Shown: in pieces, positions 59,357 to 64,000 of the stretch
Layout: the number at the start of each line of letters is the position of its first letter
Position numbering within the stretch: the stretch's first letter is position 1
DNA from: Gardnerella coleohominis
Lineage (GTDB): Bacteria; Actinomycetota; Actinomycetes; Actinomycetales; Bifidobacteriaceae
NCBI RefSeq assembly: GCF_002896555.1
Contig: NZ_MNLH01000002.1
Span: forward strand, 186,001 to 250,000
Length of the DNA stretch: 64,000 bases
Direction of reading: 5' to 3'
The notes under the pieces: generated by a model
Told to the model about the DNA's origin: nothing
The model's input: only the letters and a program-made list of their open reading frames with translations
Databases searched by the model: none
Position numbers and translations under genes: made by a program

Positions 59357-59711
59357 GCCTGCAATTCGTTCCGTTAAGTACTTAACTAAGTGTATTTTCT
59401 TACAAAATCAGAATGATAATAACTACTTATTAAGACACTATAATGCGTTAAGCGTGTCTTAATTTTCTAACTAATAATTGTTGAAATAGCGCGATAATCA
59501 TGTCTTATGCTTAAGTATTTTGTTAGGTTTTTATATTTTTCCAAAGTCTTTTTCTAACTTATTTTTGATTAATTGTTTATCTTTAATTTTAACTATTTTA
59601 GTTCGTCATATTTTAATTTCTACTATTTTAATTTTAACCATTTTAATTTCTACTCTTTGGCGCGCGGTAAAGTAATAGAGAAAATTATTGCCATGCGCTA
59701 AAGGAGTAAAA
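59357..59711. other. Divergent region between acyltransferase and ppa
   Basis: 355 bp without a gene. It holds the palindrome GTTAAGTACTTAAC (59373-59386), a 10-bp inverted repeat (59429-59463) and an AT-rich tract with repeated TTTTAATTTCTACT words (59580-59655). AAGGAG (59701) serves ppa. Confidence 0.7.
59429..59463. promoter_or_regulatory. Perfect 10-bp inverted repeat upstream of the acyltransferase gene
   Basis: ATTAAGACAC (59429-59438) and GTGTCTTAAT (59454-59463) flank 15 bp that contain TATAAT. It lies 73 bp upstream of the acyltransferase start. Operator-like; regulator unknown. Confidence 0.55.
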
Positions 59712-60206
59712 ATGGCTGAAACTTTTAATGTTGTTGTGGAGATTCCACGCGGTTCCAAGAACAAGTATGAAGTAGATCACGAAACTGGTCGCGTATTCTT
59801 GGATCGCACTCTTTTCACAGCTATGGGTTATCCAGATGATTACGGATACATTGAAGGCACTTTGGGCGAAGATGGCGATCCACTCGACGCTCTCGTTATG
59901 CTTCCAAATTCCGTGTTCCCAGGATGCGTTGTTGAGTGCCGCGCTGTTGGCTTGTACCACATGGTTGACGAAGCTGGCGGAGACGATAAGGTTTTGTGCG
60001 TCCCAGCTGACGTTCGTTTCGACGACATCAAGGATATCGATGACGTGAATGAGTATCACAAGGCTGAAATCAAGCACTTCTTCGAGCAGTACAAGGCTTT
60101 GGAACCAGGTAAGGAAGTTCTTCCTGGTGATTTCTGGGCTGGCGTAGAGCAGGCTGAAAAGGAAATCGTTGCAGCTCGTAAGCGCTTGGAAGAAAGCGAA
60201 AAATAA
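59712..60206 (+). CDS. ppa: Inorganic pyrophosphatase, family I
   Basis: 164 aa from ATG 59712, with AAGGAG 5 bp upstream. [35 protein letters not shown], and metal-binding [12 protein letters not shown] (DxDPxD type) are intact. It hydrolyses pyrophosphate and pulls biosynthesis forward. G+C-richer codon use suggests high expression. Confidence 0.98.
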
Positions 60207-60282: not shown

Positions 60283-60654
60283 TTTATTTACCAGATACGT
60301 TTTGCTACCAGTTAGGCAGAGATTTAAGATTTTTCGCCCAGAGCGAAATGTATCGCTCGCGCGTTACAGCGCGCTCACGTCTTCGCTTGCGTTGAAAGTC
60401 CACTGGACTTTCAACTTTGAGCAAGCTCACTCATCGAAGTGCATTCGCGCGCTACGCTTTAAGCGCTCATGCAAGTCGATTCGCAGCACGAAGTGGTGAT
60501 TCATTGAGCGAAGAAGGAAAATTGAAAAATCTCGGTGATTAACCGAAGATTAAAAGACTAAACATGCCAAGAGCTGTCGGAGTTTCTCTTAGAGCAATGT
60601 AAAAATCTTGCGATGAGAGAAACTCCGACAACTCAGCAACATTAGACAGGAAAA
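60283..60654. repeat. 372-bp repeat, copy 1
   Basis: It matches 63365-63736 at a constant offset of 3,082 bp with no gap and about 12 substitutions, nine of them near the ends. It contains several perfect hairpins: GAGCGA/TCGCTC, GTTGAAAGTCCA/TGGACTTTCAAC and, near the 3' end, GTCGGAGTTTCTCT/AGAGAAACTCCGAC (60576-60589 and 60616-60629). Its G+C is higher than that of nearby spacers. A 65-codon frame crosses it but looks fortuitous. No known RNA family is recognised. Confidence 0.93.
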
Positions 60655-60692
60655 GCTCACGCAAAAATTGATTTAGTGATGAGATTATTGCA

Positions 60693-61388
60693 TTATTTTG
60701 GGGCTTTAAAACTAGGACAAGTAAGTCTTAATGGGCACTCATAACAGTGCGGATTACGCGCAGTGCATACAGTTCTTCCATGCAAAATTAATCTATGCGA
60801 AAGATTAGTCCATTCGTCAGGTGGAAAATACTTAGTTATATCGCGTTCAATTTTTGCTGGATCAGGATTTTTACTACTCCAATCCTTACGCCAACGCAAT
60901 CTTCCTGTAACTCTTATCACATGCGTATCAACTGGGAAGCCAGGAATATTAAAAGCATTACCTAAAACAACATTAGCTGTTTTCCTCCCAACTCCTGGAA
61001 GAGAAGTCAAATCCTTCATTGTATTAGGAACAACACCTTTGTATTCCTCAACCAATTTAATTGAAAGCATAACAATATGCTGAGCTTTTACTCTATAAAA
61101 TCCTAAAGAATGAATTAAATATTCAACTCTGCTAATTGGAGCTTTAGATAAAGAAAGCGCGTCTGGAAATTCAGAAAATAAATCTTTAGTGACTTCATTA
61201 ACGCGTTTATCTGTTGTTTGCGCGCTTAAAACAGTAGCAATTAATAGCTCGAATGGATTATTGAAATTAAGAGCACATTTTGGGGATGGGATACTTTTAC
61301 AAAGCAACGCATACTCATTATGAATACGCGTTGAAAGAGCACTTCTATTACTTTTATTACTTCTGTTAGAAGATTCAAGCACAATCAA
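60693..61388 (-). CDS. nth: Endonuclease III
   Basis: 231 aa. In-frame starts are TTG 61388 and GTG 61382; no ATG lies before the conserved domain. HhH motif LPGVGRKTANVVLG with catalytic Lys, FPVDTHVIRVTGRL with catalytic Asp, and the 4Fe-4S cluster CTARNPHCYECPLRLTC (C-x6-C-x2-C-x5-C). It removes oxidised pyrimidines from DNA. It follows the glnR-like gene by 1 bp and is probably cotranscribed. Confidence 0.96.
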   Translation of the reverse strand: MIVLESSNRSNKSNRSALSTRIHNEYALLCKSIPSPKCALNFNNPFELLIATVLSAQTTDKRVNEVTKDLFSEFPDALSLSKAPISRVEYLIHSLGFYRVKAQHIVMLSIKLVEEYKGVVPNTMKDLTSLPGVGRKTANVVLGNAFNIPGFPVDTHVIRVTGRLRWRKDWSSKNPDPAKIERDITKYFPPDEWTNLSHRLILHGRTVCTARNPHCYECPLRLTCPSFKAPK

Positions 61389-61389
61389 C

Positions 61390-62310
61390 TCAGCTTCTCA
61401 TTGCAGATCTTGCTGCAAGTCTTGAAACCATAGCAGACTTTCTATGGGCAGAAGATATTTCGCGCAACTCGGCTGCTGCAGCCTCATCAATGTCATCGTC
61501 GTCTGATTTAAAAGTTTCGTCATAATCTTCTTGAGAAGGTTGAATTAAAGAATCAGAAACAACATGATCGCCAACATTAGCGTCAATGCCTATAGGAATA
61601 TCCTCAGGCGGATCAAAACGATATCCAACGTTTCTCACAGTACCAATCACATGCTCGTATTCTCCGCCGAGCTTAGCGCGCAGCCTTCTAATATGCACGT
61701 CGACAGTACGAGTTCCGCCGTAGTAATCGTATCCCCACACTTCTTGCAATAAATGAGCGCGAGTGAATACGCGACGAGGATGCTGTACAAAATACTTTAA
61801 TAATTCAAATTCTTTATAAGCTAAATCAATAGGCTGATCATGCAAAGTAACCGTATAACCGCGAGTGTCAACAACTAAATCTCCTGCGCAAACACATCCG
61901 TCGCCAGAAACTTCAACGTCCTCTTGAGATGATTCTTCTTGACGCGAAGTAGCCTCAACAAAACGACTACGCTGTGCTACAAGTCTTAAACGTCCCTCAA
62001 CTTCTGCAGGTGAAGCACCGGTTAGAATCACATCCGAAACTCCCCAAGCCGCATTTACTACAGTAAATCCGCCCTCTGTAAGGATAAGAATAACGGGCGC
62101 TTGTACTCCGGAAACTCGCAATAAATTGCATAATGATTTTGCTGTTGCTAAATCGTCTCTTGCGTCCATAAGAAGAACCGTGCGCTCTGGCATTTTGACA
62201 AAACTAGAGGAATCTAACGGTAATACGCGAACGCGATGAGATAACAACGTAAGCGAAGGAAGAACCATGGCAGGCGAGGCACAGGAAGTCATCAAAGTGA
62301 TGTCTGTCAT
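61390..62310 (-). CDS. GlnR-like OmpR-family regulator
   Basis: 306 aa from ATG 62310, with GGAGGT 6 bp upstream; an in-frame extension upstream has no ribosome site. The N-terminal receiver-like domain (LLMDARDDLATAKSLCNLLR, LILTEGGFTVVNAAWGVSDV) matches the atypical GlnR receiver, which lacks the normal phosphorylation pocket. Winged helix: FELLKYFVQHPRRVFTRAHL, TRTVDVHIRRLRAKL. C-terminal tail is acidic. GlnR proteins control nitrogen genes in actinobacteria; targets here are unknown. Confidence 0.88.
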   Translation of the reverse strand: MTDITLMTSCASPAMVLPSLTLLSHRVRVLPLDSSSFVKMPERTVLLMDARDDLATAKSLCNLLRVSGVQAPVILILTEGGFTVVNAAWGVSDVILTGASPAEVEGRLRLVAQRSRFVEATSRQEESSQEDVEVSGDGCVCAGDLVVDTRGYTVTLHDQPIDLAYKEFELLKYFVQHPRRVFTRAHLLQEVWGYDYYGGTRTVDVHIRRLRAKLGGEYEHVIGTVRNVGYRFDPPEDIPIGIDANVGDHVVSDSLIQPSQEDYDETFKSDDDDIDEAAAAELREISSAHRKSAMVSRLAARSAMRS

Positions 62311-62576
62311 ACATACCTCCAAGCCAAAAAGGTTTACGCCTAACACGCTCTTACTAGAAGTGTAGTCCATAGTGCGAAGATTAGGAAAATTAGACGATAC
62401 TAATAAAAAATTTTTTATCTAAACACTCATATCAAACTTTTAAATAAACAAAAGCATTCTAAGCTAAAAGTATGTGTTATATAATGGTTTAATACTGTGA
62501 CACATAAGTAGCAAACATGCGCCTTAAAACATAATAGAAATAATAACGACGCACGATATGCGTAATAGGAGAAGGT

Positions 62577-63305
62577 ATGGATAATACAACTACCACACAA
62601 AAACCGGTGACTGCATTTGCAACAATTGCTGTCACTCAAATTTTTTCCGTGGCTGTTATGTTTATAGCTGCAATTCTTCCTTTTTCTACGTTAAAAGCAA
62701 GTATGCTAGTTTGCGCACTAATCTTGCTTGTGTTCTTTACGCTATGGCCTTTAAAAGGCGGTAAATCAGATCGCACTATAGCTTTTGTTGCAGGAATCTC
62801 ATCTCTTTGGTGTGCAGCTCTATCGCTAAGAGGATTATTGCCTAATAGTGTTATAGACAACAATGATTCAGTATCAATGTCTCAGTTCATTGCAGCTATG
62901 AAGCCTTATGAAAAATGGGCTGTATCTTTTGCACTTATACTTGTTGCAGCAACTTTTGTAAGTTTCGCTCGCCAAATGTTAAGAGAAAAACGAACTAACC
63001 TTGTGCGAAATATTTCTCACACTCTTACAGCAAGCGTTGCAACAGCTGCATTGCCTGGTTGGCTGTTCCTGCCTTCTATAATTCGGTTTATGCCATCTTT
63101 GCGTAACGTATATGGCGGTTGTGCTGTAGCGGTGATTTGCATTTCGCTAATCATAGTATTTTCAGGAATGGCGCATTTGTGGAATAAAAATGCACAATAT
63201 GATGCCAAGTGCATAAAGCCAGAAATAGGAATGGCGTTATTGCCAGTAATGCTTTCAGGAATGCTTATTTATGCGGCTGGATTAGGAATGTTATTAGTTG
63301 CATAA
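62577..63305 (+). CDS. Polytopic membrane protein, unknown
   Basis: 242 aa, with GGAGAAGG before ATG. About six or seven hydrophobic helices (IFSVAVMFIAAILPFST, MLVCALILLVFFTLWPL, and others to the C-terminal IYAAGLGMLLVA). I do not recognise a family. It is divergent from the glnR-like gene and lies between the two copies of the 372-bp repeat. Confidence 0.8.
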   Translation: MDNTTTTQKPVTAFATIAVTQIFSVAVMFIAAILPFSTLKASMLVCALILLVFFTLWPLKGGKSDRTIAFVAGISSLWCAALSLRGLLPNSVIDNNDSVSMSQFIAAMKPYEKWAVSFALILVAATFVSFARQMLREKRTNLVRNISHTLTASVATAALPGWLFLPSIIRFMPSLRNVYGGCAVAVICISLIIVFSGMAHLWNKNAQYDAKCIKPEIGMALLPVMLSGMLIYAAGLGMLLVA

Positions 63306-63364
63306 TCTTATGATTTTGTTTTAAATAACAAAAGTTTGAAACTCGAATAAAATAAGCCGATGGG

Positions 63365-63736
63365 TTTATTTACTAAATACGCTCTGCTATCAGTTAGGCA
63401 GAGATTTAAGATTTTTCGCCCAGAGCGAAATGTATCGCTCGCGCGTTACAGCGCGCTCACGTCTTCGCTTGCGTTGAAAGTCCACTGGACTTTCAACTTT
63501 GAGCAATCTCACTCATCGAAGTGCATTCGCGCGCTACGCTTTAAGCGCTCATGCAAGTCGATTCGCAGCACGAAGTGGTGATTCATTGAGCGAAGAAGAA
63601 AAATCGAAAAATCTCGGTGATTAACCGAAGATTAAAAGATTAAACATGCCAAGAGCTGTCGGAGTTTCTCTTAGAGCAATGTAAAAATCTTGCGATGAGA
63701 GAAACTCCGACAACTCAGCACCATTAAATAGGAAAA
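63365..63736. repeat. 372-bp repeat, copy 2
   Basis: Direct copy of 60283-60654, about 97% identical, same length. The hairpin arms are unchanged in both copies. Substitutions cluster in the first 25 bp and the last 15 bp, with only three between. Confidence 0.93.
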
Positions 63737-63815: not shown

Positions 63816-64000
63816 ATGTCAAAAAGTAGGTATTCTCACTATAGTCATAGGCGTAATAATAAATTTACCCCGTGGATTGTGTTTATAGCGGTTTTCGCAA
63901 TTCTATTATCTGTTATGTGGTTCGGATGGCAAATAATAAACGGAAGACCTATACTTTCGCAAATACCTACATTCAGTTCCGTTAGCGGAAAAACCGTTAC
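63816..64000 (+). CDS. Start of a gene for a membrane-anchored protein (3' end outside window)
   Basis: 61 codons are visible. A basic N-terminus (MSKSRYSHYSHRRNNK) is followed by one membrane helix (WIVFIAVFAILLSVMWFGW) and an outside segment. This is the layout of a signal-anchored exported or cell-wall protein. The family cannot be told from this part. Confidence 0.7.
   Translation, partial: MSKSRYSHYSHRRNNKFTPWIVFIAVFAILLSVMWFGWQIINGRPILSQIPTFSSVSGKTV

Follow-up and report, generated by a model that had tools for sequence, protein, structure and literature searches.

We analyzed a 64,000-nucleotide stretch of Gardnerella coleohominis (contig NZ_MNLH01000002.1, positions 186,001 to 250,000), hereafter the window, which comes from a 1.67-Mb draft assembly of 47 contigs, and studied a 372-bp repeat found twice near its end. 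Our results indicate that this repeat probably belongs to a non-autonomous, modular, hairpin-based family of interspersed DNA repeats of Gardnerella-type Bifidobacteriaceae, comparable with BOX elements or with mosaics of repetitive extragenic palindromes (REP) and bacterial interspersed mosaic elements (BIME). The gene block between the two copies is inverted relative to related genomes, with one copy at each breakpoint; this is new here and was missed by the first-pass annotation of the window.

Copy 1 (60283-60654, + strand) lies between the convergent genes ppa and nth, and copy 2 (63365-63736, + strand) lies upstream of a solute-binding-protein gene. They are in direct orientation at an offset of 3,082 bp and align without gaps, with 360 of 372 positions identical (96.8%), as the first-pass annotation had described. 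Five of the 12 differences lie within 30 nt of the start and three within 20 nt of the end, leaving four for the 322 nt between; just outside both copies, identity drops to 1-5 of 10 per 10-bp step. The repeat folds far below shuffled sequence (z = -7.3 on either strand; none of 100 shuffles was equally stable). The 12-bp and 14-bp stems named in that annotation are perfect in both copies. Its broader statement that the stems carry no substitution holds for these two and fails at position 60425, where a G to T change in copy 2 breaks one pair of the outer stem around a 25-nt palindrome; stem changes are also present in other genomic copies. The repeat had been presented as a pair, which it is, but not a lone one: it is a mosaic of separable units that occur in tens of copies.

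We divided the 372-bp query into three modules, A (1-68), B (69-201) and C (202-372). In copy 1 these correspond to 60283-60350, 60351-60483 and 60484-60654, all on the + strand, and module B of copy 2 occupies 63433-63565 (+). Module C ends in a long terminal hairpin (60571-60634 in copy 1, with arms at 60571-60597 and 60608-60634; 63653-63716 in copy 2). The 133-bp unit B sits inside a shell formed by A and C, and elsewhere the shell without B measures about 244 bp. Among 26 rows with both A and C (24 main elements and two partial extra C ends), the A-to-C spacing was only 5 bases in 10, 24-31 in four, 133 (this B) in three, 147-158 in four and 394-502 in three. Shells with other middles were also present in other species. 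The A-B-C arrangement was found in only three copies in the genome of origin, and unit B is also dispersed alone, both in this genome and in related ones.

The genome of origin contained at least 107 BLAST pieces of the repeat (40 of 67 candidates scored), some of them a hairpin matching its own complement. A match was present in eight of the 61 genus genomes drawn, its own included, with a single weak match in G058. Pieces resembling B, alone and clustered in the loci read, occurred in six other Gardnerella-like genomes. A covariance model of B (R1) gave at least 55 matches in the genome of origin; this and the following counts are lower bounds, with 150 of 706-1,056 candidates scored per genome. 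The counts were at least 32 in G009, 31 in G014, 40 in G022, 58 in G031, 31 in G044 and 42 in G046, and at least 48 in G122, 22 in G123, 80 in G124, 35 in G088 and 56 in G103, five genomes that we take as Gardnerella partly from their copy number and gene order. Six other Bifidobacteriaceae had at least 1 (G058), 4 (G115, G017 and G099), 8 (G001) and 0 (G084) matches. Three contigs of G031 (C5, C6 and C8) begin or finish within about 12 bases of B units, which indicates that these repeats limit draft assemblies. Among the open-access PMC papers listed in literature searches, none described these repeats, as far as the listings show.

Unit B is predicted to form three hairpins: P1 (60359-60374 in copy 1), P2 (60382-60429) and P3 (60430-60484). 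P2 consists of an outer stem, an internal loop of 5-6 nt on the 3' side, and the inner 25-nt palindrome (60391-60415; 63473-63497 in copy 2). In an alignment of 40 copies from several genomes, 87.8% of 1,527 cells were paired under this structure. Covariation across genomic copies, which the first-pass annotation had proposed as a check, is real: 29 of 39 pairs were changed on both sides, and on the + strand 177 cells carried double changes versus 4 with one-sided changes. The covariation score was 0.317 versus 0.109 in shuffles (0 of 500 as high), a comparison to be taken with caution, as related sequences can exceed shuffles in this score; with the partners slid, the score was 0.034-0.067. 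In P3 (helices 3 and 4), whose pairing lay outside the search criteria, 17 of 20 pairs had double changes, a figure slightly favoured by leaving out L118, whose 3' part is chimeric, and L045 and L059, where it is unrelated. L067, which was not B-like, was left out as well, as were near-duplicates and any copy containing N.

The block between the copies (60655-63364) contains nth, an endonuclease III-like gene (60693-61388, - strand; PF00730, PF00633), a glnR-like regulator (61390-62370, -; PF21695 GlnR_1st, PF00486), and a gene without Pfam match (62577-63305, +) that the first-pass annotation named a predicted membrane protein. It is flanked by ppa, encoding inorganic pyrophosphatase (59712-60206, +; PF00719), and by the start of the solute-binding-protein gene (63816-64000, +; PF00496), which continues past the end of the window. 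Short AT-rich direct repeats were seen upstream of ppa, at 59582-59656. Reading along the window, the order is ppa, copy 1, nth (-), glnR (-), membrane gene (+), copy 2 and solute-binding gene (+). Six relatives have ppa, membrane gene (-), glnR (+), nth (+) and solute-binding gene (+). Nine more genomes carry glnR, nth and the solute-binding gene co-directionally in that order; the membrane gene of these nine is reversed in six and forward in G017, and the flanks retrieved for the other two did not show it. The glnR-nth-solute-binding order is thus common to all 15 other genomes, which makes the order in the window the derived one. The prediction that the two copies make nth, glnR and the membrane gene prone to deletion found no support; nth is present in the 15 other genomes as well as in the window.

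The repeat copies stand at both inversion breakpoints and yet are direct repeats. Chance is a poor explanation for this position, given that only three A-B-C copies were found in the genome. Three routes to direct copies around an inverted block failed: recombination between inverted copies should yield copies in inverted orientation, as should replicative transposition, and recombination at the inner palindromes would make these hybrid. A possible route leads through arrays that held units in both orientations and later lost some of them. An assembly misjoin is unlikely, though conceivable in a 47-contig draft, since a misjoin at direct repeats gives a deletion, not an inversion.

We examined 43 places in the genome of origin, using simple long open frames as gene calls. 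Twelve lay between convergent genes, 26 between tandem and 4 between divergent ones, and one was undetermined, counts that stand without a genome-wide baseline of gene pairs. No open frame of at least 90 codons was overlapped beyond its last 40 bases in 39 of the 43. The other four (L011, L026, L061 and L065) fall on short frames, 90-126 codons long, which are probably spurious. At L017, L022 and L023 the overlap covers 16-35 bases at the end of a flanking frame.

One site also differs between close genomes. In one 18-kb locus, three aligned blocks of G031 and G044 share 93-96% identity. At a different locus the flanks match at 96-97% in these two genomes, and between them lie 568 bases with three units in G031 but 41 bases in G044. 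In a second comparison of this kind, L042 against G044, much of the site was masked as N. At the locus of the window, R1 had no match in the 18-kb stretches of six relatives, and modules A and C had none in the relatives' nth loci; the readable gaps, five between ppa and the membrane gene (that of G044 is masked) and six between nth and the solute-binding gene, look empty. A stretch of about 560 bp at a common intergenic site in G031 (L081:16620-17179) and G009 (L076:17303-17866), absent from three relatives, reads like a small RelBE-type toxin-antitoxin pair.

Several observations weigh against a DNA repeat family of this kind. There is no candidate mobiliser in hand: the Y1 transposase of the REP-associated type (RAYT; PF01797) was found in 0 of 7 Gardnerella-like genomes, versus 5 of 14 named genomes used as control, and an IS110 transposase in 0 of 12 genomes, these two being the only families searched. 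Terminal inverted repeats (TIR) are not significant, 232 of 2,000 shuffles aligning as well, and inspection by eye of the 26 A/C rows, whose boundaries are ragged, showed no target-site duplication (TSD) at their ends. This agrees with the earlier remark that neither a transposase nor a terminal duplication is evident. The direct copies around the inverted block are not the product of a simple homologous inversion, and the difference between G031 and G044 could be a deletion in G044. As for the fold, the number of further pair types was reached by 26 of 500 shuffles, and the structure, having been written by hand from the very sequences on which it was counted, has an advantage in the slide control. 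Copies were picked by the P2 palindrome and its outer stem (helices 1 and 2), so that pairing in P2 is biased upwards; further aligned copies came from exact 19-mer matches. Finally, the minus strand of each copy has a terminator-like site (60547-60531 and 63629-63613), which would suit an RNA.

The first-pass annotation had left the choice between a structured RNA and a non-autonomous element. A repeated, structured and probably non-autonomous element is what we find, and the RNA alternative, a structured non-coding RNA or an mRNA 3' element in many copies with its fold selected in the transcript, is weakened to the point of being unlikely. The strong covariation in B would suit it, as would the small number of divergent contexts (4 of 43), the terminator-like sites (6 in the region versus a shuffled mean of 3.0), and a minus-strand promoter-like match (60720-60692) that points into copy 1 (5 such sites in the region versus 9.5 expected). 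No promoter-like site was found inside either copy. The paired positions of B comprised 1,337 Watson-Crick, 4 G-T, 27 A-C and 159 other cells. As A-C here is G-T on the other strand, G-U would be found in 4 cells at 4 pair positions on the + strand and in 27 cells at 15 positions on the opposite one, a bias expected if the opposite strand folds, which makes the minus strand the likelier candidate for a single folding strand. Wobble pairs are nevertheless rare on both, at 0.3% of paired cells for the + strand and 2% for the minus strand. A hand count over 16 tandem contexts whose B units share one orientation (L005 and L060, which have mixed units, excluded) put the minus-oriented strand with transcription in 8 and against it in 8. 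At the Rfam gathering cut-off there was no match in the whole window, in line with the annotation, which saw no known RNA family in the repeat, and only five tRNAs were found in eight repeat-bearing loci; membership of an Rfam structured-RNA family was rejected accordingly. At E values up to 5, copy 1 gave mir-883, tp2 and freshwater-2, all below their own cut-offs. Rare wobble pairs and the even orientation relative to genes fit DNA hairpins better than RNA, and on this ground a DNA-level element is preferred to its main rival, a structured RNA.

It is quite improbable that replication template-switching perfects imperfect palindromes and so produces apparent covariation with no selection on structure. 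The large excess of double over one-sided changes on the + strand and the almost strictly Watson-Crick stems would be expected from such a process. However, the architecture of B is kept while its stems change, with the internal loop on the 3' side of P2 and the order of P2 then P3 retained; the terminal hairpin of module C has uncorrected mismatches in other copies; and one-sided cells rise to 27 on the other strand. Slightly weaker still is a miniature inverted-repeat transposable element (MITE) moved in trans by an insertion-sequence transposase, which would account for a small, mostly intergenic, multi-copy element that differs between close genomes, and which we consider very doubtful given the TIR, TSD and transposase results above and a middle that varies by modules instead of keeping one length.

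The apex of B holds an exact 19-mer, GAAAGTCCACTGGACTTTC, that extends beyond the genus. It was present in at least 109 stretches, compared with about two expected by chance in 257 Gb (our own arithmetic); the 80 titles listed included Bacteroidales, gammaproteobacteria, Candidatus Kaiserbacteria, Christensenella, Bifidobacterium and Gardnerella. Within the Bifidobacteriaceae it occurred in 20 of 189 genomes, and a reversed control in none. Of 127 contexts, 47 were non-redundant, with Gardnerella and Bifidobacterium represented among them; 19 of the 47 had GTGA upstream, against a mean of 5.2 and a maximum of 12 in 500 plain shuffles, and 21 had GCGA downstream, against a mean of 6.4 and a maximum of 15. 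The full-unit model, run on 25 chosen 19-mer loci, gave its best match in Bifidobacterium (3.9e-09) and, outside it, in Paracoccus (2.9e-04); many of the matches were to the apex alone. A Y1 transposase was found in 10 of the 20 genomes behind 19-mer matches, Bifidobacteriaceae among them. From the wide occurrence of the 19-mer and the boxes often beside it, one could imagine the apex of B as a member of a cross-phylum class of single-stranded-DNA hairpin repeats, with shared machinery that copies folded hairpins in distant bacteria and can also invert genes nearby, with a direct copy left at each breakpoint; we regard this as speculative and rather improbable.

A phage link and a tRNA origin of the apex were considered and set aside. 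The 19-mer had no match in viral contigs, a result of little weight, as a made-up control palindrome also had none. The tRNA origin was examined at 15 loci: 7 lacked tRNA genes, and in the 8 that had them some lay far from the unit. Units with the same apex adjoin tRNA-His genes at L119, L134, L171 and L188 and tRNA-Thr at L137 (Coxiellaceae), and at these loci the 5' part of the tRNA gene is duplicated on the other side of the unit. In three Bacteroidales loci (L107, L173 and L183) the unit with the 19-mer forms an in-frame part of predicted proteins, close to the N-terminus, in a stretch that reads as a signal peptide might (e.g., MKKSELLFSASLSKVHWTFFILLAAAMMTVGC). Some other Bacteroidales loci have the 19-mer in tandem units of 40-42 bp.

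We propose that the units of the family (the A/C shell, the three-hairpin B and others) spread as DNA into intergenic sites and join into combinations, and that recombination between copies may keep them similar. The near-strict Watson-Crick pairing would most likely reflect a folded single strand of DNA as the form in which the unit acts or is copied. A pair of near-identical A-B-C composites would have become fixed at the ends of the membrane gene-glnR-nth block, which was inverted in this lineage, and the copies may have been causal in that inversion. Small interspersed repeats shape regulation and rearrangement, but it is still an open question by what means families lacking a transposase spread. 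With tens of copies, a site that differs between close genomes, a covariance model and a polarised rearrangement, spread and rearrangement become directly testable in Gardnerella-type bacteria. If the cross-phylum apex were one system, it would point to an undescribed mechanism.

Rickettsia palindromic elements are palindromic units found inside open frames. By description they resemble the apex 19-mer, which lies inside open frames in some Bacteroidales, and they differ from the repeat studied here in that 39 of 43 places in its own genome overlap no long open frame. Closer likenesses exist with the REP, BIME and REP-hairpin (REPIN) sequences and their RAYT, which carry GTAG or CGTC tags: excerpts of PMC3733652 describe palindromic units, clustered and mostly between tandem or convergent genes, with some families inside genes and families in distant phyla. 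The placement of our repeat is similar, being mostly intergenic, with tandem or convergent neighbours in 38 of 43 places. The GTAG or CGTC tag of a REP is an unpaired motif at one end; many copies of B have GTCGTCGCGC at the foot of P3, and the CGTC in it is partly paired in the model, while GTGA and GCGA are the motifs enriched beside the apex across taxa. A REP, as outlined in the same excerpts, is a palindrome of 20-40 bp, whereas unit B has about 105-133 nt and three hairpins; G-T pairs are often observed in GTAG repeats (PMC3733652, in part) and are rare here. A RAYT/REPIN identity was rejected on the absence of a Y1 transposase from the seven Gardnerella-like genomes, and we did not file the repeat as a REPIN or a MITE because the defining features tested, Y1 transposase and TIR, failed. 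The main texts of PMC3733652 and PMC12306157 make no mention of Gardnerella or Bifidobacterium. BOX elements (boxA-boxB(n)-boxC), known from Streptococcus pneumoniae and S. suis, are described in excerpts of PMC3049150 as having TIR and TSD, neither of which is established here, and the middle unit B, unlike theirs, also occurs alone. The likeness, which is one of description, lies in folded outer modules around a variable middle (here with A-to-C spacings from 5 to 502 among 24 elements), an excess between convergent genes, clusters, and repeats inserted into one another (PMC3049150, in part). Of the known systems, BOX and REP/BIME are the closest kinds, and the repeat appears to work most like BOX or BIME mosaics.

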